Positions 1 through 16,185 of a DNA stretch of 16,243 nucleotides are shown piece after piece. Positions within the stretch are counted from its first letter, which is position 1. Each line of letters opens with the position of its first letter. The notes below the pieces were generated by a model. It did not search any database. It was not told where the DNA came from and worked only from the letters and a program-made list of their open reading frames with translations. The position numbers and the translations under genes are program-made. This stretch comes from Candidatus Desantisbacteria bacterium CG1_02_49_89 (GTDB lineage: Bacteria; Desantisbacteria; UBA1551), in contig MNUP01000140.1 of the NCBI GenBank assembly GCA_001871075.1, forward strand, positions 1 to 16,243. Reading direction: 5' to 3'.

Positions 1-386
1 TGCGCCGGCTCCTGAAGCTCAACCGCAACCTTAACCTTGTATATATCCTCAAGGATGACCTGAAAAGGCTGTGGGACTATAGCTACCCTGCCTGCGCCAG
101 AAGGTTTCTTTCGGACTGGATCCAAAGAGCAAATGCTTCAGGGATAAGACCCTTAAAGGCTTTTGCAAAGACGCTTGATAGATACAGCTATGGGTTGATC
201 AATCACTGCCTTTACCCCATAAACACGGCAAAGCTTGAAGGCATGAACAACAAGATAAAAGTCATTAAACGTAAGGCCTACGGGTTTCACGATGACGAAT
301 ACTTTATGTTAAAGATAAAACAGGCTTGCAGCGGCTATACATAGATACATTGATTATATTATGCAACAACATTTGGAGAAGAACCC
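1..386 (+). mobile_element. right end of an ISL3-family insertion sequence (left end outside window)
   Basis: The first 386 bases carry the 3' part of a transposase gene and then a short tail ending in ...GGAGAAGAACCC at 375-386. Read outward-in on the minus strand this is GGGTTCTTCTCCAAATG, which has the GG(G/C)TCTT-type start typical of ISL3-family inverted repeats. I therefore place the element boundary at 386. ISL3 elements usually make 8-bp target duplications, so TTAAATTT (387-394) is the expected duplication. The matching copy lies outside the window, so this cannot be tested here. The insertion falls inside a small minus-strand gene. Confidence 0.72.
3..344 (+). CDS. ISL3-family transposase, C-terminal part (5' end outside window)
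   Basis: Frame 3 is open from the left edge for 113 codons to a TAG at 342-344. The protein has the C-terminal signature of the DDE_Tnp_ISL3 domain. A block reading LEGMNNKIKVIKRKAYGF, about 30 residues before the stop, holds the last catalytic acid (the E of LEG) and the conserved NNKIK-IKR-AYG string, followed by the usual hydrophobic/charged tail (EYFMLKI). The upstream part (LKRLWDY, LSDWIQRANASGI, PLKAFAKTL) matches the helical region that precedes this block in the family. The start lies outside the window, so I cannot tell whether the full enzyme is intact. It is the only plus-strand gene in the window. Confidence 0.9.
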   Translation, partial: RRLLKLNRNLNLVYILKDDLKRLWDYSYPACARRFLSDWIQRANASGIRPLKAFAKTLDRYSYGLINHCLYPINTAKLEGMNNKIKVIKRKAYGFHDDEYFMLKIKQACSGYT

Positions 387-541
387 TTAAATTTAACTAT
401 ATAATCTAAATATCTATCGTTTTTAAGATAGAGCTTCCTGTAATCGGGACTGATTGACTCATAGGCCCATAAGGCCGTAGAATTAAAGATGAGTAATGTT
501 AAAATATTCACTATCAAGATCGAATAAATTTTTTTTTGCAT
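359..541 (-). pseudogene. small exported protein gene truncated by the ISL3 element
   Basis: The open frame is 60 residues: a Lys-rich start (MQKK), a hydrophobic stretch at about residues 5-26 ending near ALWAYES that looks like a Sec signal peptide, then a short polar tail. A weak GAGAG site precedes the ATG. Residues 1-51 come from host DNA. The last eight (GSSPNVVA) and the stop are encoded by the IS terminal repeat, with residue 52 straddling the junction at 386/387. The original protein was therefore longer and its C-terminal part has been displaced by the insertion. I do not recognise the family. Base composition is AT-rich like the next genes to the right. It may still make a short peptide, but I treat it as a broken gene. 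Confidence 0.6.
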
Positions 542-615
542 TTTCTATCACTCTCAATGGTTTTAAAAATTAAACTGGAATGCACCAATTAAATTACAGC
601 TTTCTGAAAATACGA

Positions 616-1392
616 TTAATTAGTTTGCGTGCCTTGTTTAATATGATAATCAATCTTTTTTTGTCTGCAGAATTTTATCACAAAAGAAGCGGAGCTGTTA
701 TAAAATTCTTTCGTATATTTAAATTCCGAGGATTTTACATTATAATTTAACCGGCCGAAGATGATCTTGTTAACGAAAGATACAGCATCCAATATTTCCA
801 TCAAATCCTGCTTAATTATATTCGGTGTAGGATATGGTTCCATGCTAACCCATGTTTTAAATCCCTTTTCATGCAAATGCTCTAATGCTTTTATCCTTTC
901 TTTAAAACTAGCCGAATTGGGTTCGTAGTTTCTTTTAAAACCTTCATTAAGCGAAACCAGTGTAATTCCATATTCATTATTTCTGCTGAAACCGTTCATA
1001 TCTCCTAATTCTTTTGGGAAGATTCCCTTTGTTAAAACAGTGCAGCGGATATCATTGGAATTTAACTTATTAATGATTTTCAAGCTTAAATCTTTCACTT
1101 CATCCTGTTTATACATAAAGGGATCTGTTGAAAAACAAAGATGCACGTACTTTATCTTTTTTCTATATTTTGGAATTTCTTTCTCTAAAAGATCTAAAGC
1201 ATTTGAAACTATCTTAGGGTCACACCATTCTTCATAGGTTTTAACCGTGCCGCATCTTTTCTTCATCATAAAGGCATAACAGGGATACTTGCATCCATGA
1301 GAACAGCCTTCAATGTGATTCAGGCAGAAATCAGCGTATTCTACTCCGCTCTTATACAAAAGTGTCTTCCGTTCCACACGCTTTAATTTCAT
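616..1392 (-). CDS. SPL/SplB-like radical-SAM-type protein with Cx3Cx3C cluster
   Basis: This 258-residue protein resembles the COG1533 (spore photoproduct lyase-like, 'DNA repair photolyase') branch of radical SAM proteins. Near the N-terminus (about residues 30-38) is GCSHGCKYPCYAFM. It resembles the family's CxHxCxYCYA iron-sulfur motif, but one extra residue makes the spacing Cx3Cx3C instead of the canonical Cx3Cx2C. Downstream are a beta-strand block with HLCFSTDPF, then TVLTKG, GITLVSLNE and a WVSMEPYPTP block, which match the later strands of the barrel. Length suits a minimal SPL-like core. The cofactor and substrate are unknown, and the altered spacing may mean a non-standard cluster. 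The gene sits alone in its gap, 76 bp downstream of the nucleotidyltransferase gene on the same strand, in AT-rich DNA. A TTGACA lies upstream at 1442-1447 (minus) but has no good -10 partner. Confidence 0.72.
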   Translation of the reverse strand: MKLKRVERKTLLYKSGVEYADFCLNHIEGCSHGCKYPCYAFMMKKRCGTVKTYEEWCDPKIVSNALDLLEKEIPKYRKKIKYVHLCFSTDPFMYKQDEVKDLSLKIINKLNSNDIRCTVLTKGIFPKELGDMNGFSRNNEYGITLVSLNEGFKRNYEPNSASFKERIKALEHLHEKGFKTWVSMEPYPTPNIIKQDLMEILDAVSFVNKIIFGRLNYNVKSSEFKYTKEFYNSSASFVIKFCRQKKIDYHIKQGTQTN

Positions 1393-1468
1393 CTAATGCT
1401 CTATTAACTTTATCTTAAATCCTGTTTGTCCGAAGGGAAGGTGTCAAAATGAAATACCGATAGAAAAA

Positions 1469-2065
1469 TTAAGATTTCCAAATTTTTGTCTGTGTAAATT
1501 TAACTCTATATTTTTTAAAAAAATTAAACAGTGCTTCTTCTTTGCTATAAGGTATTATAATGCAGCCAGGGGAAACTTTTTCTCCACCCAATTCTTTCAG
1601 AAGTCCCTTATATGTATATTTCCCCTTTGTTTGCTCATACAATTCTCGGTTAAATACAGCTTTTTGTTTTTGGTTGAGACCATTAAGGTTGAATGAGAAG
1701 ATAATATAGGGCTTCTGTTCCAGTAAAGACACCGCTGGAATTTCCAAAGGTTCTTTTGTATAAAGGACTTTCCCTTCCTGGAATACATTTTGCAATAGTC
1801 CGGAATCGGTTTTTTCTAATTCCTCCATTGTCCTTATAGTTGGCTGAATATCATTACCTATCTCTCGTTCTAACCGAACAATCTCTTTTTCTACTTTTTC
1901 TATTGTATCTTTTTTACCGGTAACTATGAACAAATCCATATCAGACTTCGGCCCAAAATCACCGCGTGCAAAACTGCCATAGAGCACGATTGCCCTGACA
2001 TCGTTGATTTTTAACAGAGATTCTGTTATCTTTTTAGATATTAATTTCAGGTTCAATTTTTTCAT
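1469..2065 (-). CDS. MNT-type nucleotidyltransferase domain protein (likely antitoxin partner)
   Basis: This 198-residue protein has a minimal nucleotidyltransferase fold at its N-terminus. Residues 30-44 read GSFARGDFGPKSDMD, the GSx10DxD signature with metal-binding D42 and D44; a possible third acid is D72 in NDIQPT. In MNT/HEPN modules this enzyme AMPylates and silences the HEPN partner. The C-terminal ~100 residues (GLLKELGGEKVSPGCIIIPYS region) are an extension beyond the minimal domain, seen in some archaeal and bacterial stand-alone NTases. I chose the ATG at 2063-2065 because AAGGAAAG stands 5 nt upstream; a longer frame from 2095 has no such site. The start lies 32 nt inside the preceding HEPN-like gene, so the two are probably translationally coupled. 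Confidence 0.78.
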   Translation of the reverse strand: MKKLNLKLISKKITESLLKINDVRAIVLYGSFARGDFGPKSDMDLFIVTGKKDTIEKVEKEIVRLEREIGNDIQPTIRTMEELEKTDSGLLQNVFQEGKVLYTKEPLEIPAVSLLEQKPYIIFSFNLNGLNQKQKAVFNRELYEQTKGKYTYKGLLKELGGEKVSPGCIIIPYSKEEALFNFFKKYRVKFTQTKIWKS

Positions 2066-2405
2066 CGAGTCTTTCCTTAAAGAAAGTGACAACACTCTTT
2101 AAATTTTCCATTACTGTTCTTGCCCTTTTTCCGTTTACTCCGTCATAACCTAAATCTCCATAGGCAAACCAGACTTTTCTCATACTCTCGTTAATCTCGG
2201 GTGGAAAATTCTTATTACAATATTCATGTCTTTCCTTATGTGTCCCAAAATGCTGGTTTTTCTTGGCTGCCTCTGCTTCTACAAGTTGTTCAACCACTTT
2301 AGTAGCAAGATCGCCAACAACCGTGTGTTGTTTATTTTGATAAGCAGTTACTGTTGCCTGTAATTTTTCCTTTGCCAGCGCAAGATGTTTTTTAAAATTT
2401 CCCAT
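2034..2405 (-). CDS. HEPN-like small alpha-helical protein (likely toxin partner of MNT)
   Basis: The protein has 123 residues, appears all-helical and highly charged, and is encoded immediately before and overlapping an MNT nucleotidyltransferase. This is the standard layout of HEPN/MNT toxin-antitoxin modules. The body (LALAKEKLQATVTAYQNK, then GDLATKVVEQLVEAEAA, then a C-terminal helix VMENLKSVVTFFKERL) matches the four-helix HEPN arrangement. I do not find the RNase motif Rx4-6H; the closest element is HKERHEYC at about 56-63. Assignment therefore rests mainly on context and helix pattern. The start at 2405 is chosen because AAAGGA lies 5 nt upstream; a frame opening at 2426 lacks a ribosome site and sits inside operator 2. 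It is the first gene of the operon. Confidence 0.6.
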   Translation of the reverse strand: MGNFKKHLALAKEKLQATVTAYQNKQHTVVGDLATKVVEQLVEAEAAKKNQHFGTHKERHEYCNKNFPPEINESMRKVWFAYGDLGYDGVNGKRARTVMENLKSVVTFFKERLDEKIEPEINI

Positions 2406-2413
2406 ATAAATCC

Positions 2414-2434
2414 TTTTCGATATCATAACGAAAA
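2414..2434. promoter_or_regulatory. operator 2 of the HEPN/MNT operon (imperfect palindrome)
   Basis: A 21-bp palindrome centred on base 2424 with a single mismatched pair (2420/2428). Its right half, ATAACGAAAA, is shared with operator 1. It lies in the 5' leader, just upstream of the ribosome-binding site of the HEPN-like gene. The centre is exactly 40 bp from that of operator 1, and TATCATAACGAA recurs at 2421-2432 and 2461-2472. Confidence 0.6.
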
Positions 2435-2455
2435 ATACCCCGAATCAGCCACTTT

Positions 2456-2472
2456 TTCGTTATCATAACGAA
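2456..2472. promoter_or_regulatory. operator 1 of the HEPN/MNT operon (perfect palindrome)
   Basis: TTCGTTATCATAACGAA is a perfect 17-bp odd palindrome centred on base 2464. It covers the predicted transcription start (about 2471) just downstream of the -10 box, where a bound protein would block initiation. It is a site for an unknown dimeric repressor. Neither operon protein shows an obvious DNA-binding domain. Confidence 0.65.
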
Positions 2473-2477
2473 TTAAT

Positions 2478-2506
2478 ATTATACTATATTTTTCTTCAAA
2501 AGTCAA
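2478..2506 (-). promoter_or_regulatory. sigma-70 promoter of the HEPN/MNT operon
   Basis: Minus strand: TTGACT (2501-2506), 17-bp spacer, TATAAT (2478-2483). This is within one base of consensus with ideal spacing and points at the HEPN-like gene, with a predicted start near 2471. The palindromic operators lie directly downstream. Confidence 0.75.
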
Positions 2507-2560
2507 TTTCCAGGCCGATGCCCCTCTTTGTTTTTAAAACCGGCATTATTCTGCCTTAAT

Positions 2561-2595
2561 AGATTGCTTCGTCGCTTTGCTTCTCGCAATGACAG
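2561..2595. repeat. degenerate half copy of the GTCATTGCGAG / GAAGCAATCT dispersed repeat
   Basis: AGATTGCTTCGTCG at 2561-2574 and CTCGCAATGACAG at 2583-2595 match, in reverse orientation, one arm of the palindromic element at 16053-16086 (TGTCATTGCGAG...GAAGCAATCT). It lies 2 bp beyond the stop codon of the dehydrogenase gene, so it would be transcribed as that gene's 3' tail. Confidence 0.65.
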
Positions 2596-2597
2596 CT

Positions 2598-3617
2598 TTA
2601 CGGTTTTATTATGACTTTAATGGATTCGCCGGCGCTTGCCACAAGCCGGAACCCTTCTCCTGTTTCCGAAAGGGGCAGGCGATGGGTTATCATGTCCTCT
2701 ACAGGGACCCTTTTCGCTTTCAGGAGCTCAAGCGCGATAGCGAGGTCGTTAGGCGCTGCGCCGTAGGATGTCATCATTTTAACCTCGTTGCGCCACAGAT
2801 CGGCTATCGGGACAGGGATGTCGGTCCCGGGCTTTGGGACAGCGAAGAACAGTATGGTGCCGCCAGGCTCCACGCATTTCAACGCGGTCGCGCACGCGGA
2901 TTCAGCTCCGGTACAGATGATAACGATATCCGCAAGCCTTCCCTCGTTTAAATTTTTCAGCTGTTCAGTGACATTTCCCTTCGCGCTGATAACATTATCC
3001 GCTCCGGATTCAAGGGCTTTTTTCATCCTGTATTCACTTATGTCGGATGCTATTATCCTTCCTGCGCCCATAACCTTCGCAAGCCGGAGGTGTAGAAGGC
3101 CGGATATGCCGCTTCCGATTATTAATATGGTTGAACCGGGAGTTATACCTATCTGCCTCTGGCCCCTTGCAACGCACCCAAGCGGCTCTATGAACGTTGC
3201 TGTTTCGTAGGACATATCATCCGGGAGCAGGAAAGTTCCCCTGTCAGCGTTTATCGCCGGTATCCTTATATATTCCGAGAACCCGCCCGGGTCATAGTTC
3301 GTGTGGTGCAGGGTATCGCAGGCTGTGTGGTGTCCGTTAAGGCAGTAATGGCAGGTGTTGCACGGCACGTGGTGGGTCACGAACACCCTGTCGCCCTTTT
3401 TGTATTTCTTCACATTCGCGCCTGTTTCGGTTATTTCCCCGGCCATTTCGTGGCCCAGCACCCGCGGGGCTGTCTTTATGCGGTACCATTCAAGCACGTC
3501 GGTTCCGCAAACGCCCGACGCTTTTACTTTGACGAGGAATTCATCCGGCCCGATCCTGGGCACGGGTTTTTCTTCCAGGCGCACATCCTTATTATTATAG
3601 TACATCGCGACTTTCAT
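2598..3617 (-). CDS. zinc-dependent medium-chain alcohol/polyol dehydrogenase
   Basis: This 339-residue cytosolic enzyme belongs to the medium-chain dehydrogenase/reductase family (sorbitol, threonine and alcohol dehydrogenase branch), which oxidises a secondary alcohol or polyol with NAD(P). Catalytic zinc ligands are visible at C37 (GVCGTD), H56-E57 (GHE) and the E144 region (FIEPLGC). The structural zinc lobe has C86, C89, C92 and C100. The Rossmann motif is GSGISG at 168-173, with D192 at the end of the second strand, which favours NAD over NADP. Length is normal for the family. GGAG lies 7 nt before the ATG. The substrate cannot be read from sequence. Downstream of the glycosyltransferase gene across a 110-bp repeat-filled spacer, it could be co-transcribed with it. 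Confidence 0.92.
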   Translation of the reverse strand: MKVAMYYNNKDVRLEEKPVPRIGPDEFLVKVKASGVCGTDVLEWYRIKTAPRVLGHEMAGEITETGANVKKYKKGDRVFVTHHVPCNTCHYCLNGHHTACDTLHHTNYDPGGFSEYIRIPAINADRGTFLLPDDMSYETATFIEPLGCVARGQRQIGITPGSTILIIGSGISGLLHLRLAKVMGAGRIIASDISEYRMKKALESGADNVISAKGNVTEQLKNLNEGRLADIVIICTGAESACATALKCVEPGGTILFFAVPKPGTDIPVPIADLWRNEVKMMTSYGAAPNDLAIALELLKAKRVPVEDMITHRLPLSETGEGFRLVASAGESIKVIIKP

Positions 3618-3632
3618 TTTTTTCTCCTTAAT

Positions 3633-3730
3633 GATTACGGTGATTTTAAAAGATGATTACGGTGATTATTTTTAGTATCAAGCATCAAGCAGAAGAGAAA
3701 TCCGTGAAAATCCGTGTTAATCCGTGGTTA
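3633..3730. repeat. modular word-repeat spacer A
   Basis: Three tandem modules lie in a row: GATTACGGTGATT twice (3633-3645, 3655-3667), a 7-bp TATCAAG/CATCAAG pair (3677-3690), and three perfect-register 10-bp units AATCCGTGAA, AATCCGTGTT, AATCCGTGGT (3699-3728). The final GTGGTTA supplies the stop codon of the glycosyltransferase (TTA, 3728-3730, read on minus). The same modules in the same order occur at 13510-13624. Confidence 0.8.
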
Positions 3731-4867
3731 ACTCTGCTCAAGCTGCTGGACCACGAATTTTGCTATTTCGTCAGCGCCGGATTTCAGGCCCAGCTTCTTC
3801 GTGTTTTCCTTGTATGTTTTGAGTATATCCGTGTTCTGTATTTCCCTGATTATGCTGAAGAACGTTTTTGCGTCCGGCGCGTACCAGCCCGCCTTGTTGT
3901 CCATCGCGAATTCCACGTTCGTCCATTCGTTGCACGCTGCCCAGTCCGTGTAAATTATGGGGCAGCTCATTATCAGGGATTCCATTGTGGTGGAAGCGCC
4001 GGCTTTCGCTATGGTGAAGTCGGAAATGGAGAGGAGCTCGTTCATGTTGTTAATGTACCCGAACGGCACAAGCACCGTTCCCGATCTCACTTCCTTTTTC
4101 AGGCTGTCAAAATGCGCTTTCAGGCCTTCATTCCTCCCGCAGACAAAAAGCACGTTGAACGGCATGTTTTCCCGGTAGATCGTTTCCACGTATTTCGCGC
4201 TTGAGGCGCCTATGCCCTGGCCGCCGGCGCTTGTGAGTATCGTCGGTTTTGACGGGTCAAGGCCGTATAGCTTCACGAGCTCTTCCTTTGATTTTGTTAT
4301 GTTGAAGAAGCTGCGTCTGACAGGGAACGGCATGATAAGGATCTTCTTCTCTTCGATACCGAGTTTCAGAAGCTTCTGTTTCGCTATTTCGGACGCCACG
4401 ATTATCCAGTCCATCCTTTTTTCCGCCCACCAGGGGCAGGCGTCAAAAGGGTCTGTGATGTAGCCTATAAGCTTTATGGGCAGCATTAATTTTTCTCTGA
4501 TATAGGCGCAGGTGAAGAAGGAGAACATGTGTGGCGTGAAAACGATATCAGGCTTATAATTTCTGAGGTACTCGGTCCCTTTTTCCAGCCATTCCCTGGC
4601 AAAAAGGCTCAGGTATCCCTCTGAATCGTACCTGGTCGCCCACATTATCTTGTAGCCCAGCCGCGCCAGGACCGGGTATCTCAGAAGGAATTCCCAGCCG
4701 CCCTTGAGCGCCTTATCGTCCTTCAGGGCGCCTGATTCCTTGGCGAAATCCACCACGTCTATCTGGTACTTACCCGGGTAAAACGCCTCTATCGATTCCT
4801 TCACCGCCATCGCAGGGATCTTGTGCCCGCTTCCGGCTTCGATATGCGGCATGAATATCTTCTTCAT
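3728..4867 (-). CDS. MGDG synthase/UgtP- and MurG-like glycosyltransferase
   Basis: This 379-residue enzyme has two Rossmann-like lobes typical of GT28/GT-B. The N-terminal lobe has HIEAGSGHKIPAMAV (AGSGH at 11-15) as in monogalactosyldiacylglycerol synthase and diacylglycerol glucosyltransferase (MGDG_synth domain). The C-terminal lobe has the nucleotide-sugar region: TSAGGQGIG (about 213-220), VCGRNEGL (242-249) and KAGASTTMES (288-297), the family's GGxTxxE site with Ala in place of the first Gly. It probably transfers a hexose or GlcNAc from a UDP-sugar to a membrane lipid at the inner leaflet. I chose the ATG at 4865-4867, which follows GAGGTGATT; the longer frame from 4897 begins in spacer repeats without a ribosome site. 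The last codon and stop fall in a tandem repeat. The neighbouring UDP-galactopyranose mutase suggests glycolipid or glycan synthesis. Confidence 0.8.
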   Translation of the reverse strand: MKKIFMPHIEAGSGHKIPAMAVKESIEAFYPGKYQIDVVDFAKESGALKDDKALKGGWEFLLRYPVLARLGYKIMWATRYDSEGYLSLFAREWLEKGTEYLRNYKPDIVFTPHMFSFFTCAYIREKLMLPIKLIGYITDPFDACPWWAEKRMDWIIVASEIAKQKLLKLGIEEKKILIMPFPVRRSFFNITKSKEELVKLYGLDPSKPTILTSAGGQGIGASSAKYVETIYRENMPFNVLFVCGRNEGLKAHFDSLKKEVRSGTVLVPFGYINNMNELLSISDFTIAKAGASTTMESLIMSCPIIYTDWAACNEWTNVEFAMDNKAGWYAPDAKTFFSIIREIQNTDILKTYKENTKKLGLKSGADEIAKFVVQQLEQS

Positions 4868-4892
4868 AATCACCTCAGAAATATGAATTTTA

Positions 4893-4957
4893 ACCACGGA
4901 TTAACACGGATTTTCACGGATTTCAACTTTTAACCTTTAACCTTCAACTTTTAACTC
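4893..4957. repeat. word-repeat spacer B (10-bp units then 11-bp units)
   Basis: ACCACGGATT, AACACGGATT and TTCACGGATT (4893-4922) are the inverse orientation of the 10-bp units at 3699-3728. They are followed by a run built from TCAACTTTTAACC and its variants (4923-4957), which overlaps the last codons of the UDP-galactopyranose mutase gene. Confidence 0.75.
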
Positions 4958-6058
4958 TTTGAATCTGGCAAGCGAGGAAGCTATGATCGCGTCCATGTTG
5001 TAGTACTTATACTGGGCAAGCCTGCCAAGGAATATCACGTTTTTATTGTTCTTTGCTTCTTCCTCGTATTTTTTATAGAGCTTAACGGGTTCATCCGCAG
5101 GGATCGGATAATAGGGGATGTCGGTTTCCTTTTCGCACGCCTTTGAAAATTCCTTGATGATCGTTGTTGAATCAGCCTTCTGCCAGGTCAGGCGTTTGAA
5201 CTCGGTGATCCTGGTGAAGCCGTAGTCGTTTGGGTAGTTGATAACAGAGGCGTCCTGGTAGAATTCCTTCTTATGGTTCTCGAACCCGAAATCCAGGGAG
5301 CGGTAAGGGAGCTTCCCGAACTTATACTCAAAAAATTCATCCACAGGTCCCGTGTAAATAAGTTTTTTGTATTTCAGCTGGCCCCGGACCTTCCTGTAGT
5401 CTGTGTTAAGGTCCACCCTTATGTTCCTGTTCGAGAGCATCTTTTCGAATACCGGCGTGTAGCCTTTCACTGGCATTCCCTGGAACCTGTCCTGGAAATA
5501 CCTGTTGTCCCTGCTTACGAAGACCGGTACCCTTCCCGTGACTTCGGGCGAAAGGTCTTCGGGTTTCATTCCCCACTGCTTTTCCGTGTAATGCAGGAAG
5601 ACCTTTTCATATACGTAGTCCGCCAGGAACTTCAGGTCCGCGTCATCCGCCTTGCGCAGGTCAAGTATCGGCACCTTTTTGTTGAACCCGAATTTCTCAA
5701 GCAGTTTGTTTTCCAGCTTCTGGGCGAAGGATCCGGGGAAAAGCGCGCGGATAGAGTTAAGGTTGAACGGGACAGGGGCGTAATGGCCGTCTATGAACGC
5801 CAGCACCTCGTGCTGGTAAAGGTTCCATTCAGTGAAATTGGACACGTAATTCCAGGCTTCTTCGTTCACCGTGTGGAAGATATGAGGGCCGTACTTGTGT
5901 ATGAGTATGCCGTGTTCGTCAGGGCAGTCATAGCAGTTCCCCCCTATATGGCCGCGCTTGTCAATGACAAGCACCTTTTTATTGAGAACGCTTGCTATTC
6001 TTTCCGCCATCACGCTGCCGGCAAATCCCGCGCCGACTACAACATACTCTGCGTCCAT
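4937..6058 (-). CDS. glf: UDP-galactopyranose mutase
   Basis: This FAD-dependent mutase interconverts UDP-galactopyranose and UDP-galactofuranose in the cytosol, supplying Galf for cell-surface glycans. Recognition is clear over 373 residues: the dinucleotide motif VVGAGFAGSV (7-16), the FAD/substrate strand HIGGNCYD (37-44), KYGPHIFHT (55-63), a central YTEKQWG motif, SRDNRYFQDRFQGMPVKGY, and a C-terminal FLGRLAQYKYYNMD block that contacts FAD. Length is typical. AAGGAG lies before the ATG. The last five residues (LKVEG) and the stop are encoded by the tandem TTAAAAGTTGAAGG word run of the adjoining spacer, so the true family C-terminus may have been replaced by repeat sequence. It precedes the glycosyltransferase gene by 69 bp, and the two probably form a transcription unit. 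Confidence 0.95.
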   Translation of the reverse strand: MDAEYVVVGAGFAGSVMAERIASVLNKKVLVIDKRGHIGGNCYDCPDEHGILIHKYGPHIFHTVNEEAWNYVSNFTEWNLYQHEVLAFIDGHYAPVPFNLNSIRALFPGSFAQKLENKLLEKFGFNKKVPILDLRKADDADLKFLADYVYEKVFLHYTEKQWGMKPEDLSPEVTGRVPVFVSRDNRYFQDRFQGMPVKGYTPVFEKMLSNRNIRVDLNTDYRKVRGQLKYKKLIYTGPVDEFFEYKFGKLPYRSLDFGFENHKKEFYQDASVINYPNDYGFTRITEFKRLTWQKADSTTIIKEFSKACEKETDIPYYPIPADEPVKLYKKYEEEAKNNKNVIFLGRLAQYKYYNMDAIIASSLARFKELKVEG

Positions 6059-6072
6059 GTTAACTCCTTAAA

Positions 6073-6197
6073 CATAGTCCATAGTCCATTGTCCATAGAC
6101 CATAGTATGCTTGTAAAATAATAAGTTTTAAGTTTACAGAGTTTATACAGTTTACAAAGTAAAAAAATTCGTGAGAATTCGTGCTAATTCGTGGTTA
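6073..6197. repeat. word-repeat spacer C (three different word runs)
   Basis: Three runs follow one another: CATAGTCCATAGTCCATTG... (6073-6109), built from ATAGTCC/ATTGTCC/ATAGACC words; an AGTTTTAAGTTTACAG... run (6124-6160); and three 10-bp units AATTCGTGAG, AATTCGTGCT, AATTCGTGGT plus TA (6166-6197). The last run has the same architecture as 3699-3730 with TTCGTG in place of TCCGTG. Confidence 0.7.
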
Positions 6198-6214
6198 AGA
6201 ATTTAGTGGTTAGG

Positions 6215-6652
6215 TCAGACGGAATTGAATGTAAGGAAAAAGATAATTGCGGCCGGGATGCCCAGGTAAACATACATAGAGGGCACAGGGCCTATCCAGG
6301 CCTTGTGCCACCAGATCCCGCCTTTCCTGAATTTCCTGATGCCGTAATCCGGGTTCAGCGCGAACCACAAAAAATCTTCCGCGAGGAACAGCTCTATTAT
6401 CAATCCCGCTGTGAACAATTCCCTCCGAATGTTCCACCTGGCAAATAAAAATGTTATGTGTATGAAGGTTATTACGAAAAGCGCGAGGAATATGTGGTAG
6501 CCTGTGAGCGGCCTTCCGCCCATGGAAAATTTTTCGTTCCTCCAGCAAGGGAGTTTTTCAGCCCACCCGTTCTTGCCTTCGATCTGGATCTCCCACAGGG
6601 CGAGAATAAGGGCCAGGAACAGGACGTATACCATGAGCCCGAGCGCCGGCAT
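6215..6652 (-). CDS. small multi-pass membrane protein of unknown function
   Basis: About 145 residues with four probable membrane helices: one near the N-terminus (LMVYVLFLALILAL), one around YHIFLALFVITFIHITFLF, one around LFTAGLIIELFLAEDFLWFAL, and one at the C-terminus (YVYLGIPAAIIFFLTF). Between helices are conserved-looking aromatic and charged segments (GGRPLTGYH, NPDYGIRKF, GGIWWHKAWIGP), which suggest a real family. I do not recognise it. The start is uncertain: I list the ATG at 6650-6652, which has GGAGG only 3 nt upstream, but a TTG at 6662-6664 or an ATG six codons further in (6632-6634) are possible. It lies between the aldolase and mutase genes on the same strand and could belong to the glycan cluster. 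Confidence 0.65.
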   Translation of the reverse strand: MPALGLMVYVLFLALILALWEIQIEGKNGWAEKLPCWRNEKFSMGGRPLTGYHIFLALFVITFIHITFLFARWNIRRELFTAGLIIELFLAEDFLWFALNPDYGIRKFRKGGIWWHKAWIGPVPSMYVYLGIPAAIIFFLTFNSV

Positions 6653-6670
6653 GTGCCTCCGCAATAATAC

Positions 6671-6718
6671 TGTTAAAAGTTAAAGGTTGAAGACTAAATC
6701 CGTGCTAATCCGTGGTTA
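6671..6718. repeat. word-repeat spacer D
   Basis: TGTTAAAAGTTAAAGGTTGAAG (6671-6692; TTAAAAG-type words as in spacer B) is followed by two 10-bp units AATCCGTGCT and AATCCGTGGT (6697-6716) plus TA. The final GGTTA again supplies the stop codon (TTA 6716-6718) of the gene on the minus strand, here the aldolase. Confidence 0.75.
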
Positions 6719-7606
6719 TTCTTTTCTCTTTTTGGATTTTAAATCATTGTACATTTCAAGGGCTTTTTCGGGAGTAAGGTCCTTATGCACTACCGCGCTT
6801 ACCGCTTTTATCATCGCGACGGGATTTTCGCTCTGGAAAATATTCCTGCCCATATCCACTCCTGACGCACCTTCCTGTATCGCCTTGTACGCCATTGTCA
6901 GCGCTTCAAGTTCGCCTATCTTTTTGCCCCCGGCCATGACTATCGGCACCGGGCAGGAAGATGTAACCGTCCTGAATCCTTCCGGCACGTAGTATGTTTT
7001 GACAAAGTGAGCGCCGAGTTCAGCGCATATGCGGCAGGCAAGCCTGAAATATCTGGCATCCCTGACCATTTCCTTGCCGACCGCGGTAACAGCCATCACC
7101 GGAATGCCGTACCGCAGGCCCGCGTCCACGAGTTTCGTCATATTGTGCACCGAACGGGTCTCAAATTCGCCTCCGATGAAGACCTGTAAGGCGATCGCGG
7201 ACACGTTCATGCGTATCGCGTCCTCGATATCCACCGCTATTTCCTCGTTTGAGAGCTCCTTGAGTATGCTGGGCCCGCCGCTTGAGCGCATAACAATTGG
7301 CTTGTTCGAGTCCGGCGGCACAAGGGAACGCAGTATGCCGCGGGTGAGCATCAGGGCGTCCGCGTAGGGTATCAGCGGCACGATGCTTATATCCATGCGC
7401 TCAAGCCCGGTTGTGGGTCCCTGGAAATATCCGTGGTCTACCGCAAGCATTACCGTGTGGCCAGTTTTAGGGCTGAATATCCGGGAAAGCCTGTCCTTCA
7501 TTCCCCAGTCCAGAGAGCCTGAGCCTTTTAAAGAGAACACGGGGTTCTTCTGGGGGACATCCTCGTAAAACTTTTTTTCCTCTTTGCTTACGTCTGTTTC
7601 CGGCAT
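6716..7606 (-). CDS. LsrF-like class I aldolase (DhnA/DeoC superfamily)
   Basis: This 296-residue (beta/alpha)8 enzyme closely resembles E. coli LsrF, the thiolase acting on phosphorylated autoinducer-2 breakdown products. Shared stretches include [57 protein letters not shown] and [21 protein letters not shown]. The Schiff-base lysine is K203 in FVKTYYV, and D57-H58 lie in the AVDHGY strand. Compared with LsrF it has about 25 extra N-terminal residues. No lsr transport, kinase or regulator genes appear in the window. Related DhnA aldolases also act as archaeal-type fructose-bisphosphate aldolase or in the ADH/DKFP shikimate route, so the substrate is open. GGGAGG lies 7 nt before the ATG. 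The stop codon is supplied by a tandem repeat. Confidence 0.85.
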
Positions 7607-7625
7607 AATCTACCTCCCTTTAAAG

Positions 7626-7722
7626 ACAATTATGAGTTATGAATCAACGGCATGGAGTTAAATTTAAATAAAAATCCTTGTTTTTGACTCATAATCTACG
7701 ATCATTCATAATTCATCATTAA
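7626..7722. repeat. ~95-bp dispersed intergenic repeat, copy 1
   Basis: It begins ACAATTATGAGTTATGAATC (7626-7645), identical to 11066-11085. It ends with a 44-bp block at 7673-7716 identical to 11111-11154, holding the ATTTAAAT...ATCCTTG core and TTGACTCATAATC. The two ends are imperfect inverse complements (ATTATGAGTTATGA against TCATAATTCAT), so it can fold on itself. The plus strand also contains TTGACT-17-CATAAT (7684-7712). Its right end overlaps the 3' end of the next gene by a few bases. Confidence 0.85.
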
Positions 7723-7925
7723 TCTGGTTTAACAACAAGAAAGCCTTTCTGGATGAGCCAGTGATGGAATTCGTAGGTCGTGTGGACGCAGGCCTCCTTG
7801 CATTTGTTCCTTACCTTTTCGTATTCCTCAGAGCCTTCCTTTTTTGTTTCAAGCTCCGCCTGCACAGGGCATTTTATGTCCCTGCAGTATTCACGCCGCT
7901 TATATTCAGTATATCCGCTGATCAA
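7719..7925 (-). CDS. 68-residue Cys-containing small protein, TTG start
   Basis: A small acidic/basic cytosolic protein with four cysteines arranged C14-x4-C19 and C42-x3-C46 and histidines at about 48 and 54-55 (VHTTYEFHHW). This could form a small metal site, but I recognise no family. No ATG is available near the 5' end. The TTG at 7923-7925 is supported by a very strong ribosome site, AAGGGGG at 7930-7936, 4 nt upstream. A consensus promoter at 8128-8155 gives a leader of about 195 nt that contains a strong hairpin. The aldolase gene lies 112 bp downstream and may be co-transcribed. Reality is supported by the ribosome site, promoter and sensible composition, not by homology. Confidence 0.62.
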   Translation of the reverse strand: MISGYTEYKRREYCRDIKCPVQAELETKKEGSEEYEKVRNKCKEACVHTTYEFHHWLIQKGFLVVKPD

Positions 7926-7962
7926 GAAACCCCCTTAATATATTGTGAGATTGTGAGATTTA

Positions 7963-8001
7963 CCCCCTGCAGTCCCGATATAATCGGGACTAGACGCGGG
8001 G
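7963..8001 (-). promoter_or_regulatory. leader hairpin upstream of the small Cys protein gene
   Basis: A perfect 9-bp stem AGTCCCGAT/ATCGGGACT (7971-7979 with 7983-7991) with a 3-nt loop sits inside outer CCCC/GGGG arms (7963-7967 with 7998-8001). In the transcript the 5' CCCC could pair either with the hairpin's own G-run or with the G-run of the ribosome site at 7930-7934. That would give two mutually exclusive folds, one hiding the ribosome site. It could instead be a dispersed palindrome with no regulatory role. Confidence 0.45.
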
Positions 8002-8013
8002 ATTCCTTATGAA

Positions 8014-8093
8014 AGATTGTGAGAGTGAACTGAAGTTGATTTATTTAAATAAAATCCTTGCATCATAATTTTGCAATTTGCAATTTGCATTTT
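8014..8093. repeat. word-repeat spacer F with TTTAAATAAAATCCTTG core
   Basis: GATTGTGAGAGTG (8014-8026; the ATTGTGAG word also occurs twice at 7942-7957), then ATTTAAATAAAATCCTTG (8043-8060), then TTTGCAA, TTTGCAA, TTTGCAT (8070-8090, period 7). The core matches the centre of the ~95-bp repeats at 7626 and 11066, with different words on either side. Confidence 0.6.
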
Positions 8094-8127
8094 AACTTTT
8101 GCAATAAGTAGTTATTTATGTTACTTT

Positions 8128-8155
8128 ATTATACCAATAATTTAAAATTTGTCAA
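8128..8155 (-). promoter_or_regulatory. consensus sigma-70 promoter
   Basis: Minus strand: TTGACA (8150-8155), 16-bp spacer, TATAAT (8128-8133); both hexamers are perfect. It begins 7 bp beyond the stop of the TauE-like gene and points at the small Cys protein gene and the aldolase, with a predicted start near 8121. Confidence 0.72.
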
Positions 8156-8161
8156 ATTTCA

Positions 8162-8521
8162 TTACCTGCCAAAACACATCCTGGCCGCGATAACAAAAAG
8201 GAAGATGCCGAAGATCCTTTTGAGCATCACATCGGGTATGGGCTGTGCAAAGACAGCTCCTAAAAGCCCCCCGAAAAAGAATCCGGCCGCGATTATCAAG
8301 CCTATTTTTAAGTCAGCGCACCCGTTCTGATAGTATTTTAGAAAAGCAAGAAGCCCAATGGGCGGTAAAAGCGCGGCAAGAGAAGTTCCCTGCGCCTGGT
8401 GCTGGGTTAAACCGAACATATAGACAAGCACCGGAATGATTATAACCCCGCCGCCTATGCCCAGAAAGCCGCTTAAAACTCCTGCCGCAATCCCCAGAAT
8501 TATATAACCCAGAATTTGCAT
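8162..8521 (-). CDS. half-size TauE/SafE (TSUP) family membrane permease
   Basis: This 119-residue inner-membrane protein corresponds to one half of the usual ~250-residue TSUP transporter, whose members move sulfite, sulfonates or other anions. It shows about four membrane helices. The signature GIAAGVLSGFLGIGGGVIIIPVLV lies in helix 1-2, followed by HQAQGTSLAALLPP and a KIGLIIAAGFFFGGLLGA helix. The frame is clean, with a perfect AAGGAGG site 5 nt before the ATG and a proper stop. There is no trace of a second half downstream, where a promoter follows within 7 bp, so it is probably a natural single-repeat form that works as a dimer and not a truncation. The substrate is unknown. It lies downstream of the DUF6259-like gene by 44 bp and could be its operon partner. 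Confidence 0.85.
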   Translation of the reverse strand: MQILGYIILGIAAGVLSGFLGIGGGVIIIPVLVYMFGLTQHQAQGTSLAALLPPIGLLAFLKYYQNGCADLKIGLIIAAGFFFGGLLGAVFAQPIPDVMLKRIFGIFLFVIAARMCFGR

Positions 8522-8565
8522 ACGTTCCTCCTTAGTAGATTACTGTTGGATACGAATTTTTCTCC

Positions 8566-11052
8566 TTAAGCTTTGTGGCCGGTTATTTCAAGAAGGTAGA
8601 TTTTGCGCGGCTCAAGCGTAAACCTTATTCTGCCTATGGGCTCAGCCATTTCCCCCAGATGCGCGGGTTCCTTGTTACTCGACACAAGGGATAATTTCCA
8701 GGGCCCTCTGGGTATTGCGTATTTCCGCAGGTCCAGGTCCACTATGACTATCTGGGATTTCCCGTAGAGGTTCACAAAAAGCAGGCCCATGGTTTTGTCC
8801 TGGTGGGTCCACGCTTCGTGTATCACGGCGGGGACCGTCTGGGTCCCGCTGTCCCTGCGGCTCGCGGAACCGCTGTAATGGTACCAGTCCATCTCCACGT
8901 ATTCTACTTCGGAAATAAGTTTCGCGGGCCTTGCCATTTTCCCGTAGGCAAGATACGGTTTTGCGAACCCGGTGCGCGCCGCCGCTATTTCCCTGAGGAA
9001 TTCAAGTTTTTCCGGGTCAGCCTGGAAAGGATTTTCGTCTTCTATAAAAGTGCGGTCGTGCGTGATGTATACGCTTTTCCCGGACATTTCCGGCAGGAGT
9101 TCCGGTGAGGAATATTCGTAGTTGAGTTCCACGATGCTTCCTTCAAGGCATACCCTTGAGGCAATGTAGTAAAAATAGTTCCCGAAGTCCTTTGACAGCT
9201 TGCACAGCCCGTCCATGCAGACAGGCCCGAACTCGTGATAGACATACGGCCACATAGGGATGCGTCGGGCAAAGCCGTTTTTCAGAAGCTGGAGGAACTG
9301 CGCCCCCTCCATGTCATTCTGCACCTCGGCGCCGGAGCGGCAGTGCGCGAAATCAATGACGTTTATGAAATTCTCCGCAATGGCCTCTGTCCCGCGCGGC
9401 ACGCACGCGCGGGCGGCTTTCATCGTTGCTTCTTTGCTTGCACTGTAAACCCTGCGGTATGCCTCGATAAGGTTCCTGCCTTTGCCCGCGGGGCAGCCGA
9501 GGTCCGTCCTGTCTGAAAAATTTCCCAGGCTGGAGGCGGAAAGGTCGTAGTAATTCGCGTCAACGCCGCATTGCTTCACCGCTTCCGCGTCGCGCAGGGC
9601 GTGGAAGTCCTGCCAGTATTTCGAGGAAGGGTGCATCCAGTTGTCCAAGAATTCGGAGGCCAGGTTTTCCCTGAGTTCCCTCGAGAGCAGCCCGTATCTG
9701 TCCAGGTTGTGCCCGTAGGAAAGAAAATCAAAAAGAAAAAGCGCGAAGCGGTCACCGTTCTTCTTTACCGCCTCGGAATTCTTAGGGTCCATGTTGGAAG
9801 GGAACCACTGTGCCGGGTCGGAGATATCTTCAAATTCGGGCCTGAATCTTTGATACAGCCTGAACGCCTCCCGCAGGTCTTCTATGCGCGAAGCGGATAT
9901 GTCAACCCCGATCTCCTTCATGGCGTTTTTAAGCCTGGTTTCATCCGTAACGTCGTGGGGCGCAAAATTTTTCAGTTCCGCGTGCATCCTGATAAGCGTT
10001 GCGTATCCGGGTTTAAGCCCGATCTTCCCAAGTATCTCCCTTAGTCCAGGGAGGGGCCCCCGCTCAAGGCGCGACCATCCGGCCCAGTCATAACCCAGGA
10101 CGTGGAATACGGGTGTTGAAGCGACGCCGTGGAACGCTTCTATCCATTTCGAGACGTCTAAGGATGAAGGCATGCCGAAAGTGCAGAAACCGGTTTGTTC
10201 TGCGAGCCATTTTGCTGCCGTGCCTTTCTTTACCCTGTCCTCAAGTTTTCCCTCGTTGCACCAGGCGGGAGAATCTTTTTCCGCGCCGGCAGCCCAGGCC
10301 CTGTAGCGGTCAGCGGCTTCGCGCCAGTCGCCTTCGTTTAAAACTCCGATTATCACGGGGTACCCGGGGTCAAGGGCATTACCCGGTTTCAGGTCCCAGG
10401 ATTCATGCATTATTGACGCGGCAAGCGCGCCGGCATCCCTGAAGAAATTGAATTCTTTGGCTGTGTTTTTTGGGTCCCGGCAGATGAAATAAAAGCCGCC
10501 GGCGTCCTTAAGGTAATAAGCGAAGAACTGCATCGTGCTGCCGGAGCCGCTGGGGTAGGGAACATGGCGCAGAAGCCCGGGATCCGCAAGGGTCTTAAAA
10601 GGCGCGCGGAACAGGAAGCCGCGGGCTACGGGATGGGCAAGATACGTATTGTTCAGCTCATTGCCGAGGATACCTATACCGCTGATCAGGGGGAATTCGA
10701 GGGATGATATTATTTCTTTTGTTTTGTTCTCAACCCTGAAGACCAGGGTGAGTTCGGGGCTGTCCTTGGGGAGGCTTGCCGTTGCTTTTATTGAAAGTCC
10801 TTCTTTTATCTTCCAGGTAAAATCAACGTCCTTTCCGTTCGTCCTGGGCATAACGTCGCAGCTTTCGAAAGATGATGTCTGCCTGGGAGGAGCTGAAAGG
10901 TTTTCCTTCATGCGGAGGATCCAGGGGGGTGAATCGGGTTTGAATTTTTCCGAAACGAGATGCAGGTTGGCAGGGCGGTTCAGTATTTCCACGAACGCGC
11001 CATGCCAGGTGTTTATTTCAACATGTATCCATTTATTTTCAAGCACAACCAT
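8566..11052 (-). CDS. DUF6259-like glycoside hydrolase candidate
   Basis: This 828-residue protein has no signal peptide. Residues ~1-240 look like a beta-sandwich of galactose-mutarotase/GH supersandwich type (alternating strands, VENKTKEIISSLEFPL, PGYPVIIGVLNEGDW). About 270-620 looks like a TIM barrel: FHVLGYDWAGW (316-326), QCGVDANYYDLSAS (494-507, with D498 and D503 in a strand typical of a retaining nucleophile) and RGTEAIAENFINVID (553-567, with E560). The C-terminal ~150 residues form a second beta domain (TMGLLFVNLYGK, RFTLEPRKIYLLEI). This fits proteins annotated DUF6259 that resemble GH families acting on alpha-linked sugars; the family call is from memory of its pattern. The start is supported only by a weak GGAT site. 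The nearby Gfo/Idh and MDR dehydrogenase genes fit a carbohydrate-use role. Confidence 0.62.
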   Translation of the reverse strand: MVVLENKWIHVEINTWHGAFVEILNRPANLHLVSEKFKPDSPPWILRMKENLSAPPRQTSSFESCDVMPRTNGKDVDFTWKIKEGLSIKATASLPKDSPELTLVFRVENKTKEIISSLEFPLISGIGILGNELNNTYLAHPVARGFLFRAPFKTLADPGLLRHVPYPSGSGSTMQFFAYYLKDAGGFYFICRDPKNTAKEFNFFRDAGALAASIMHESWDLKPGNALDPGYPVIIGVLNEGDWREAADRYRAWAAGAEKDSPAWCNEGKLEDRVKKGTAAKWLAEQTGFCTFGMPSSLDVSKWIEAFHGVASTPVFHVLGYDWAGWSRLERGPLPGLREILGKIGLKPGYATLIRMHAELKNFAPHDVTDETRLKNAMKEIGVDISASRIEDLREAFRLYQRFRPEFEDISDPAQWFPSNMDPKNSEAVKKNGDRFALFLFDFLSYGHNLDRYGLLSRELRENLASEFLDNWMHPSSKYWQDFHALRDAEAVKQCGVDANYYDLSASSLGNFSDRTDLGCPAGKGRNLIEAYRRVYSASKEATMKAARACVPRGTEAIAENFINVIDFAHCRSGAEVQNDMEGAQFLQLLKNGFARRIPMWPYVYHEFGPVCMDGLCKLSKDFGNYFYYIASRVCLEGSIVELNYEYSSPELLPEMSGKSVYITHDRTFIEDENPFQADPEKLEFLREIAAARTGFAKPYLAYGKMARPAKLISEVEYVEMDWYHYSGSASRRDSGTQTVPAVIHEAWTHQDKTMGLLFVNLYGKSQIVIVDLDLRKYAIPRGPWKLSLVSSNKEPAHLGEMAEPIGRIRFTLEPRKIYLLEITGHKA

Positions 11053-11065
11053 GATTAATCCATAA

Positions 11066-11158
11066 ACAATTATGAGTTATGAATCTACTGCAAGGTATTA
11101 ATTTAAATAGAATCCTTGTTTTTGACTCATAATCTACGATCATTCATAATTCATAATT
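11066..11158. repeat. ~95-bp dispersed intergenic repeat, copy 2
   Basis: Second copy of the repeat at 7626-7722: the same first 20 bases (11066-11085), a divergent ~25-bp middle, then the identical 44-bp block (11111-11154). It also carries TTGACT-17-CATAAT on the plus strand (11122-11150). It sits between the TPR gene and the DUF6259-like gene. Confidence 0.85.
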
Positions 11159-11168
11159 ATATTTTCAA

Positions 11169-12143
11169 TCAGCGGATAAGTTCCTGAAATTCAGGTTTTT
11201 CCCTTATTAGGCCAAAGTCCTCGTCCTGCACGGCGTCTTTTTTAAACGCGGGATTTTTTTCTATCGCCTTCCTGAGCCACTCTGTGCTGTTTTTAACATC
11301 GGCTTTTTTCGCGTAAGCGCAGGCTATGTTATACATAAAACCCGATTCCTCCGGGGCAATGTCAAGGCCGTATAGATATTCTTCTATCGCGTTGTCATAT
11401 CTTCCGGTTTTTAAATAACTTGTGGCAAGAAAATAATAGAAAAACGGATCCGCTTCATATCCGGGCCTTGCCCTTTCGAAATTTAAAGCCGCGCTTTCAA
11501 AATTATTGTGTTTGAAATAGATCTGGGCGAGGAAGTAGCAGTTTTGGTCATAGGCTATTTCGGTTTGTTCGGAGCGCATTACCATGTAATACTTTTCTTT
11601 CATCTCCCGGTCTTTCAGTTCTTTGAAAAAGGCATATTTTTCAAAAGATGCGATAGCACGGGAATCCTCGCCCCTTGACATCTGGATTATGCCCATGATC
11701 CCCCACGCGCCTAAAGAAGAGGAGTTTATGTCTATAGCTTTCCCGCATTCGGCTATAGCTTCGTCAGATCTTCTCATCCTGTTGTATGTTTCCGCGCGGT
11801 TCAGGTACGCGGCTTCAAGCTTCGGGTCCAGGGCAATGGCCTTTTTCAGGACTTTCAGCGATTCCGTTGTATTCCAGGTGCGGCAGTAAGCCCTTCCGAG
11901 TTCGGAATATGCTTTTGCATTTTTGGGTTCGAGCCTTATTACTTCTTTCAGGTACAAAATAGCGGTTTCATACTGTTCCCTTGCCAGGGCGGCAGCACCC
12001 ATGCCGTGCAGAAGCATAACGTTTTCCTCAAGCGGTTTTTTGCTCTTGGTTTTTGCTTTGATCTTGGCGGTTTTTGTTTCAGCCGCTTCAGCGGACGCAG
12101 CACAGATGATCACCATAAGGATTGTGACGAATATTTTTTTCAT
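11169..12143 (-). CDS. exported tetratricopeptide-repeat protein
   Basis: 324 residues. An N-terminal signal peptide (MKKIFVTILMVIICAASAEA, cleavage after AEA expected) and a Lys-rich linker are followed by six or seven TPR units from about residue 45 to 300. Recognisable units include AREQYETAILYLKEVIRLEPKN, KAYSELGRAYCR, AAYLNRAETYNRMRRSDEAI, FYYFLATSYLKTGRYDNAIEEY and FMYNIACAYAKKADVKNS. It is probably a periplasmic or outer-membrane scaffold for protein contacts; no lipobox is seen. The C-terminal tail (DFGLIREKPEFQELI) is common at the end of TPR proteins. The ribosome site before the ATG is weak (AAAG). It follows the homocitrate-synthase-like gene across a hairpin spacer of 110 bp, and no functional link between the two is evident. 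Confidence 0.88.
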   Translation of the reverse strand: MKKIFVTILMVIICAASAEAAETKTAKIKAKTKSKKPLEENVMLLHGMGAAALAREQYETAILYLKEVIRLEPKNAKAYSELGRAYCRTWNTTESLKVLKKAIALDPKLEAAYLNRAETYNRMRRSDEAIAECGKAIDINSSSLGAWGIMGIIQMSRGEDSRAIASFEKYAFFKELKDREMKEKYYMVMRSEQTEIAYDQNCYFLAQIYFKHNNFESAALNFERARPGYEADPFFYYFLATSYLKTGRYDNAIEEYLYGLDIAPEESGFMYNIACAYAKKADVKNSTEWLRKAIEKNPAFKKDAVQDEDFGLIREKPEFQELIR

Positions 12144-12200
12144 CTTTATTTACCGATTTGTTTTAAGCCATCAGCTACCGAAGAGCCATTAACCCAGCTC

Positions 12201-12251
12201 TGGCTCGTAGGTCCCTGCATTGAGTGCCGAAGGCACTGCAGGGATGAGCCA
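12201..12251. repeat. long bulged hairpin 2 nt after the homocitrate synthase-like gene
   Basis: Stems: TGGCTC (12201-12206) with GAGCCA (12246-12251), TCCCTGC (12212-12218) with GCAGGGA (12238-12244), AGTGCC (12223-12228) with GGCACT (12232-12237), loop GAA, bulge ATTG. A second GAGCCA at 12183-12188 can compete for TGGCTC. No T-run follows on the minus strand, so it is not a standard intrinsic terminator. It may stabilise the 3' end or be a dispersed palindromic repeat. Confidence 0.6.
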
Positions 12252-12253
12252 TG

Positions 12254-13492: not shown

Positions 13493-13509
13493 TTCTACTC
13501 CTTAATTGT

Positions 13510-13624
13510 GATTACGGTGATTTTTAAATGATGATTGCGGTGATTATTTTTAGTATCAAGAGTCAAGTGTCAAGTATCAAGTTAAAACCAAAATATTTCT
13601 CTGTGTCTCCGTGCCTCCGTGGTT
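13510..13624. repeat. modular word-repeat spacer L (same layout as spacer A)
   Basis: GATTACGGTGATT (13510-13522) and GATTGCGGTGATT (13533-13545), then four 7-bp units TATCAAG, AGTCAAG, TGTCAAG, TATCAAG (13554-13581), then an 8-bp CTCCGTGC/CTCCGTGG run ending in CGTGGTTA (about 13599-13624). Two TTCGTG words follow, up to the stop of the Gfo/Idh gene. Read on the minus strand, the 7-bp units create several TTGACA/TTGACT -35-like hexamers. Confidence 0.78.
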
Positions 13625-13647
13625 ATTCTTTCGTGCTTTCGTGGAAA

Positions 13648-14640: not shown

Positions 14641-14684
14641 CATGATTCCTTAGATTATTTAATTATGAATTATGAGTTATGAGT

Positions 14685-14756
14685 CAAGGAATCAGGGCTC
14701 CCTCCCAACAAGATTGGCGGGTCTTCGAGAAGCCCTGAGTTTCAATAAATTCCTTG
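14685..14756. repeat. 72-bp inverted-repeat spacer
   Basis: Outer arms CAAGGAAT (14685-14692) / ATTCCTTG (14749-14756), inner arms TCAGGGCT (14692-14699) / AGCCCTGA (14731-14738), with a small CCAA/TTGG (14705-14717) inside. It is preceded by an AATTATGAATTATGAG word run (about 14660-14684) like the start of the ~95-bp repeats, and ends with the same ...TCCTTG core. Confidence 0.65.
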
Positions 14757-14762
14757 TTGTTG

Positions 14763-14794
14763 CGTTGACACGTTGACACGTTGATACGTTGACA
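14763..14794. repeat. four tandem 8-bp units CGTTGACA
   Basis: CGTTGACA, CGTTGACA, CGTTGATA, CGTTGACA in perfect register (14763-14794), 6 bp from the stop codon of the aminotransferase gene. On the plus strand each unit holds a TTGACA or TTGATA hexamer. Confidence 0.85.
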
Positions 14795-14800
14795 CGCCTG

Positions 14801-15985: not shown

Positions 15986-16015
15986 ATTCTTCCTTTTGAA
16001 CATAGATACTGGATC

Positions 16016-16185
16016 CTAGTGTGGTGTCTCTAACAGATCTTTACATTTGGGCTGTCATTGCGAGGAGTGTTAACGACGAAGCAATCTCGACCTAAAAATC
16101 GAGATTGCCACGCTCCCTTTGGTCGCTCGCAATGACAACTCAAAGCAGAATCAAATGTCAAGGGATTTATGTGACACCATACTAG
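16016..16185. mobile_element. palindromic MITE-like element, copy 1
   Basis: A 170-bp near-palindrome. Ends CTAGTGTGGTGTC (16016-16028) and GACACCATACTAG (16173-16185); then ACATTTG (16043-16049)/CAAATGT (16152-16158); TGTCATTGCGAG (16053-16064)/CTCGCAATGACA (16126-16137); GCAATCTCGA (16081-16090)/TCGAGATTGC (16099-16108). It has no coding capacity. CTAG at both ends could be a 4-bp target duplication as made by IS5-group transposases, or a TA duplication as for IS630/mariner types. Confidence 0.7.

Follow-up and report, generated by a model that had tools for sequence, protein, structure and literature searches.

The genome of Candidatus Desantisbacteria bacterium CG1_02_49_89 contains short tandem DNA words of the form AATCCGTG..AATCCGTGG that recur across at least ten phyla, in bacteria and in phages. 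The window analyzed here is a stretch of 16,243 nucleotides (contig MNUP01000140.1, positions 1 to 16,243), which is contig 97 of the 2.48 Mb draft genome. It holds four polar AATYCGTGNN arrays ending in GTGGTTA, where shuffled sequence leads to an expectation of none. We show that such arrays are a polar, intergenic, orientation-free and mosaic-forming word family common to distant bacteria and phages, with a fixed end that faces gene edges and that sometimes supplies stop codons. The observation made in a first-pass annotation of the window, that tandem runs with a fixed end coincide with stop codons, is confirmed.

Abundance, placement and grammar of the arrays

Genome statistics are based on pattern searches and on 538 kb of stretches (81% coding) fetched mostly around matches, a sampling that raises array density and gives no reason to expect skewed orientation or distance measures. 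Genes were called with a simple hexamer-scored finder of open reading frames (ORFs), checked against the ORFs of the window only. Genome-wide, there are 86 matches to CGTGNNAATCCGTG, 191 to CGTGGTTA and 111 to CGTGN{1,6}CGTGGTT, versus 0, 22 and 4, respectively, in reversed controls. The 538 kb sample contains 150 arrays of the AATYCGTG, CTCYGTG and TTTCGTG families, versus 26 in the reversed sequence. In the window, AATYCGTGNNAATYCGTGGTTA has four matches versus 0 in 200 dinucleotide shuffles. Chance or base composition as the source of the arrays is excluded by the reversed controls and shuffles. The four tandem runs reported by the first-pass annotation are where it placed them, and CGTGGTTA is over-represented.

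All but one of the 150 arrays are intergenic. Their orientation relative to flanking genes is balanced (73 sense, 67 antisense), and no leading-strand or transcription-strand bias was detected in this genome. Of the two array ends, GTGG is closer to a gene edge in 80 of 107 spacers, at a median of 33 bp versus 99 bp (permutation P < 5e-5), both before start codons and after stops, and start-side arrays are as frequent as stop-side arrays. In this sample, the runs are biased to gene edges, in line with what had been proposed from the window.

As first described, the TTA at 3728-3730 and at 6716-6718 is the stop codon of a minus-strand ORF, 3728-4867 (glycosyltransferase) and 6716-7606 (aldolase). 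The aldolase (LsrF-type) has its native length (profile positions 1-290 of 291; the alignment with the LsrF aldolase in the PDB extends to residue 288 of 296), so array 4 (Table 1) and this gene meet where the gene naturally terminates. Among opposing frames of at least 100 open codons at GTGGTTA arrays, 8 of 10 in this genome and 14 of 19 elsewhere terminate at the TTA. Based on all arrays, the commonest gap between the stop of an opposing ORF and the GTGG end is 0 (5 of 28 ends in this genome, 16 of 60 external and 6 of 18 phage ends). The second commonest, -11, corresponds to the inner TAA of a TT linker (1, 5 and 4 ends, 10 in total). Arrays and stop codons coincide more often than chance predicts in each of three independent data sets (this genome, other bacteria and phages). 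Arrays supply stop codons in a minority of cases, and most touch no stop codon at all. The earlier proposal that arrays sit at gene ends and donate stops is thus retained for the coincidence itself and not for a specific placement at stops, given that the start side is equally common.

The base following the last CGTG is nearly fixed, being G in 77 of 83 AATYCGTG arrays genome-wide. The continuation after this G is most commonly TTA (43), followed by TTG (16) and CTG (12). The fixed GTGGTTA end proposed from the window therefore holds as far as its G, TTA being merely the commonest continuation. It was described for the plus-oriented runs, where it is present, and the inverted copy carries it too. 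The two-base linkers depend on position: GA is the commonest first linker (16 of 37) and TT the commonest last linker (24 of 82). Neighboring linkers within an array are identical in 2 of 37 cases versus 3.5 expected, so the identical adjacent units of a variable-number tandem repeat grown by slippage are not seen. Because linkers are unlike within an array yet position-specific, recent in-place, unit-by-unit slippage is unlikely, and the pattern speaks for the copying of whole words.

The arrays have ordered neighbors. AGTTTACA (TTTACA) words lie upstream of arrays genome-wide (22:5), as do AAAGTTGAA (AAGTT) words (15:0), and CTCYGTG arrays (10:1) and TTTCGTG arrays (5:0) lie downstream of AATYCGTG arrays. 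In other phyla, a CTCYGYG array is found downstream in 12 of 108 cases versus 7 of 1080 random positions. Overall, 12.7% of intergenic 12-mers belong to words that recur at least five times, versus 0 in an equal amount of coding DNA.

Table 1 Arrays and other lexicon words in the window
Feature	Position	Strand	Composition	Setting
Array 1	3699..3730	+	AATCCGTG x3 at 3699-3726, linkers AA and TT, then GTGGTTA 3724-3730	
Array 2, inverted	4891..4922	-	x3 at 4895-4922, inverted end TAACCAC 4891-4897; units and linkers as array 1	Flanked by the genes for UDP-galactopyranose mutase and the glycosyltransferase; GTGG end faces the glycosyltransferase start
Array 3	6166..6197	+	AATTCGTG x3 at 6166-6193, linkers AG and CT, then GTGGTTA 6191-6197	GTGGTTA end ~20 bp off the stop of ORF 6215-6664
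Array 4	6697..6718	+	AATCCGTG x2 at 6697-6714, linker CT, then GTGGTTA 6712-6718	
8-bp-period relative	13599..13625	+	CTCTGTGTCTCCGTGCCTCCGTGGTTA	
Third family	13628..13643	+	CTTTCGTG x2, GTGGAAA end	4 bp off the stop of ORF 13648-14643
Other lexicon words	6073..6160	+	CATAGTC 7-mers and AGTTTACA 9-mers	Upstream of array 3
Other lexicon words	13502..13582	+	GATTACGGTGATT words and AGTATCAAG words	Upstream of the 13599 array

Arrays 1 and 2 share an identical stretch of ~33 bp, including linkers (3698-3730 and 4891-4923), and form inward-pointing inverted repeats flanking the glycosyltransferase gene. The window has 0 matches in Rfam.

Other phyla, phages and two Hymenobacter loci

Based on AATCCGTGNNAATCCGTGGTTA, a pattern of 20 fixed bases for which we estimate ~0.5 chance matches in 257 Gb, the word is present in at least 102 stretches of GTDB genomes. 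Among the matches listed are Planctomycetota, Poribacteria, Verrucomicrobiota, Lentisphaerae, Bacteroidota (including Hymenobacter and Chryseobacterium isolates), Balneolales, Acidobacteria, Treponema, Latescibacterota, Auribacterota, Neomarinimicrobiota and Betaproteobacteria. The occurrence is sporadic: the word was found in 2 of 98 diverse genomes, one of them the source genome, and in 9 of 294 genomes of a single phylum (that of G102). The nearest relative, from the same order, has no match to the strict form and one weak match to the loose form. Genomes rich in the word hold 8-20 copies each. In two Phycisphaerales genomes (L114, L136) an array is located at the stop of the same conserved small gene, a site common to two species.

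Contigs from IMG/VR carry the word densely, with up to 19 loose matches in 38 kb. Several of the word-bearing contigs are phages, given that they encode Mu-type transposase (3 records), Gp27, GemA, portal, terminase and scaffold proteins. Phages are thus a plausible carrier between phyla. Plasmids and named phages gave no good match to a 34-base array.

We followed two Hymenobacter loci across the genus. At one orthologous gene, several species have the array directly at the stop, with a gap of 0 or 1; this stop is TAA, TGA or TAG while the C-terminus is conserved. Therefore, neither targeting of TTA nor a donated stop is needed there, and position at the gene end counts more than the letters TTA. 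At the locus before guaA, the arrays form inverted arms. Arm-to-arm scores average 39.8 within a locus versus 23.5 between species, indicating that the arms change together. At the second locus, two arms lie around a terminator-like hairpin, one directly at the stop codon that ends the upstream gene and the other 4 bp from the next start codon. Orthologous sites have an array in some species and none in others, with spacers too diverged to show a junction. Several species without the array at the glycosyltransferase end (L230, L233, L235, L236, L238) have other inverted repeats there, of the GTCATCCTGAACGCAGTGAAGGACC type.

Inverted repeats, palindromic modules and transposases

Some spacers of the source genome are inverted repeats of other words, 32 of 308 scoring at least 30 versus ~6 expected. 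Spacers of this genome also fold strongly (mean z -2.5 versus -0.26 for coding controls). For the AATYCGTG arrays of this genome, inverted partners in the same spacer do not exceed the cross-spacer level (2.9% versus 3.8%). Inverted arms are therefore rejected as a general rule: they hold in Hymenobacter and in some spacers here, and not for the AATYCGTG arrays here.

Palindromic modules of 28-130 bp are inserted within arrays at one fixed place, the linker slot directly after CGTG (L001, L033, L038, L047, L054, L062 and others); the window has a copy near 12183-12245. Module stems vary in a paired way between copies (GGGTCA/TGACCC, GAGCCA/TGGTTC, GCGCCA/TGGCGC), and modules nest in each other's loops. 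In the window, ATTATGA words form the spacers at 7618-7735, 11050-11170 and 14650-14800, arranged as inverted arms on either side of a CAAGGAATTTT hairpin. In the last of these spacers, ATTATGA makes up one arm and GTTGACACG the other, which looks like an exchange of arms. At 16014-16243, two copies of a gtgtctctaacagatctttacatttgggctgtcattgcgaggagtgttaacgac stretch enclose an inverted repeat of the TCATTGCGAG type.

The genome has 10 matches to PF01797, the Y1 transposase. Such transposases are also frequent in genomes without the word, and one genome with four copies of the word (G101), which may be incomplete, has no PF01797 match. As carriers of the arrays, Y1 transposases do not discriminate between genomes with and without the word.

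Origin of the arrays and comparison with known repeats

Our preferred reading, to which we give slightly less than even odds (about 0.47), is that the arrays belong, as one family, to a lexicon of polar spacer repeats, dispersed and non-coding, that are copied between spacers and between genomes and halt at gene edges; the mechanism of copying is one that we infer. Whole words rather than single units would be copied from spacer to spacer, by gene conversion or by template switching during repair or replication, and words would be carried between species, probably by phages. They would pile up in dispensable DNA until they meet the first base under constraint, with selection on genes setting the limit. 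We propose that the coincidence with stop codons arises because copies run up to the ends of coding frames, where the TTA of GTGGTTA (or an inner TTA) would become the stop. Such copying would require no function at the protein or RNA level.

Several points weigh against this reading. Hymenobacter arrays keep their orthologous places even as their words change, so that position seems to be under some constraint. Two phage records, IMGVR_UViG_3300031885_000054 (L183, L185) and 3300009285_005437 (L188, L191), are strongly strand-biased (18:1 and 8:0), which is unexpected under neutral copying and unlike the balance in the genome of the window. We found no pair of strains differing by one array, and so observed no copying event; the source genome has no close relative. 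The identity of word and composite order across phyla could stem from a shared binding protein. Lastly, the stop-gap counts use the ends of frames open for at least 100 codons, some of which are probably not genes.

If the words were binding sites of a conserved DNA-binding or nucleoid protein, selection would keep the 7-10 bp spacing and the GTGG end would mark the edge of a site beside genes. The identical word and end in many phyla, the persistence at orthologous Hymenobacter gene edges despite sequence change and the 10-bp spacing of the AATYCGTG family fit such sites. Their sporadic occurrence (9 of 294 genomes of one phylum, one weak match in the nearest relative), the many different words with periods from 7 to 10 in one genome, and the lack of preference for orientation or gene side lead us to regard them as unlikely. 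We give a somewhat smaller chance to a miniature mobile element that has defined ends (REP, MITE or IS200/IS605-like) and that a transposase, for example one of the Y1 enzymes encoded in the genome, would move. The 10 matches to these enzymes, the fixed slot of the palindromic modules just after CGTG and the inverted arms in Hymenobacter agree with it. The arrays, however, are non-palindromic, lack an excess of inverted partners in the same spacer (2.9% versus 3.8%) and have no sharp common outer boundary on their left side, and the transposase and the word occur without each other, the latter in the possibly incomplete G101.

Improbable in our estimation is an element acting at the RNA level, whether a terminator, an mRNA stabilizer or a stem that draws a stop and the following gene's start together. 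Strong spacer folding in this genome and the Hymenobacter arms set at a stop and 4 bp from the next start, around a terminator-like hairpin, speak for it; the absence of sense/antisense bias in this genome (73:67) and of any Rfam match in the window, and the presence in Hymenobacter of the same arms between what we read as divergent promoters, speak against it. The explanation given by the first-pass annotation, insertion targeted at TAA stops or expansion from them by slippage, does account for the excess of ORF ends that fall precisely on GTGGTTA in the three data sets. It is largely refuted by start-side arrays and by the occurrence of TAA, TGA and TAG alike among the abutting stops; most arrays are away from stops, and linkers are not repeated within arrays (2 of 37). 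We consider it very improbable.

A stronger form of copying, which we hold to be doubtful, is that the arrays are DNA that spreads by itself, of a class not described before. Its members would be polar word arrays, unbounded and lacking their own transposase, which phages move between phyla and which are written into spacers with the GTGG end set against gene edges. Were this true, a large share of the intergenic DNA of a genome would be made from one common lexicon.

The arrays show that spacer sequence in some bacteria follows a lexicon rather than random drift, which bears on how promoters, terminators and small RNAs are called in such genomes. They also show that unrelated genes can have their stop codons taken over by a repeat. 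Such intergenic repeats were earlier noticed word by word in few lineages, without a mechanism. Transfer becomes directly testable here, as a single exact word, its fixed end and some of its neighbors recur in at least ten phyla and in phages.

A literature search with the array sequence itself found nothing. Among known systems, REP/BIME with RAYT, ERIC and NEMIS/Correia elements are present in high copy, exclusively intergenic, in both orientations and tolerated beside genes; they are palindromes with defined ends. The arrays resemble them in copy number, intergenic placement and use of both orientations and differ in being non-palindromic, and it is the palindromic inserts inside arrays that are more like this type. 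DNA uptake sequences (DUS/USS) are dispersed words of few families, single or paired and one per genome. Like the arrays, they lie near gene ends and have taxon-specific dialects, whereas the arrays form a lexicon of tandem words rather than one word per genome.

The TAACTGA repeats of Beggiatoaceae, Cyanobacteria and Bacteroidetes are 7-bp direct repeats, mostly intergenic, with 2-6 copies in the best-studied genome (MacGregor 2015, PMC4679880). They are scattered over distant lineages, missing from close relatives and mixed with other heptamers, and sets lie just before start codons or, reversed, just after stops; their author likewise found no transfer mechanism (PMC4679880). The STRR heptamers of cyanobacteria and long simple sequence repeats (LSSR) are near-perfect iterations (as described in PMC4679880). 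With STRR and LSSR the arrays share tandem words of period 7-10 at many loci of a genome, and with TAACTGA their intergenic placement and gene-edge position. The evidence for this kinship is direct repeats of 7-10 bp at many loci (86 matches versus 0; 150 arrays versus 26), 149 of 150 of them intergenic, scattered in distant lineages and absent from near relatives. Pure iteration is not found, as linkers vary within an array; the word is also polar. TAACTGA mostly points at start codons, whereas the arrays lie on both gene sides equally and are known from many more phyla. New relative to TAACTGA are the period of 10 with variable linkers and a fixed end unit, the ordered lexicon and carriage by phages. 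We therefore file the arrays under intergenic repeats of the TAACTGA/STRR kind, as a variant distinct from the TAACTGA family itself.

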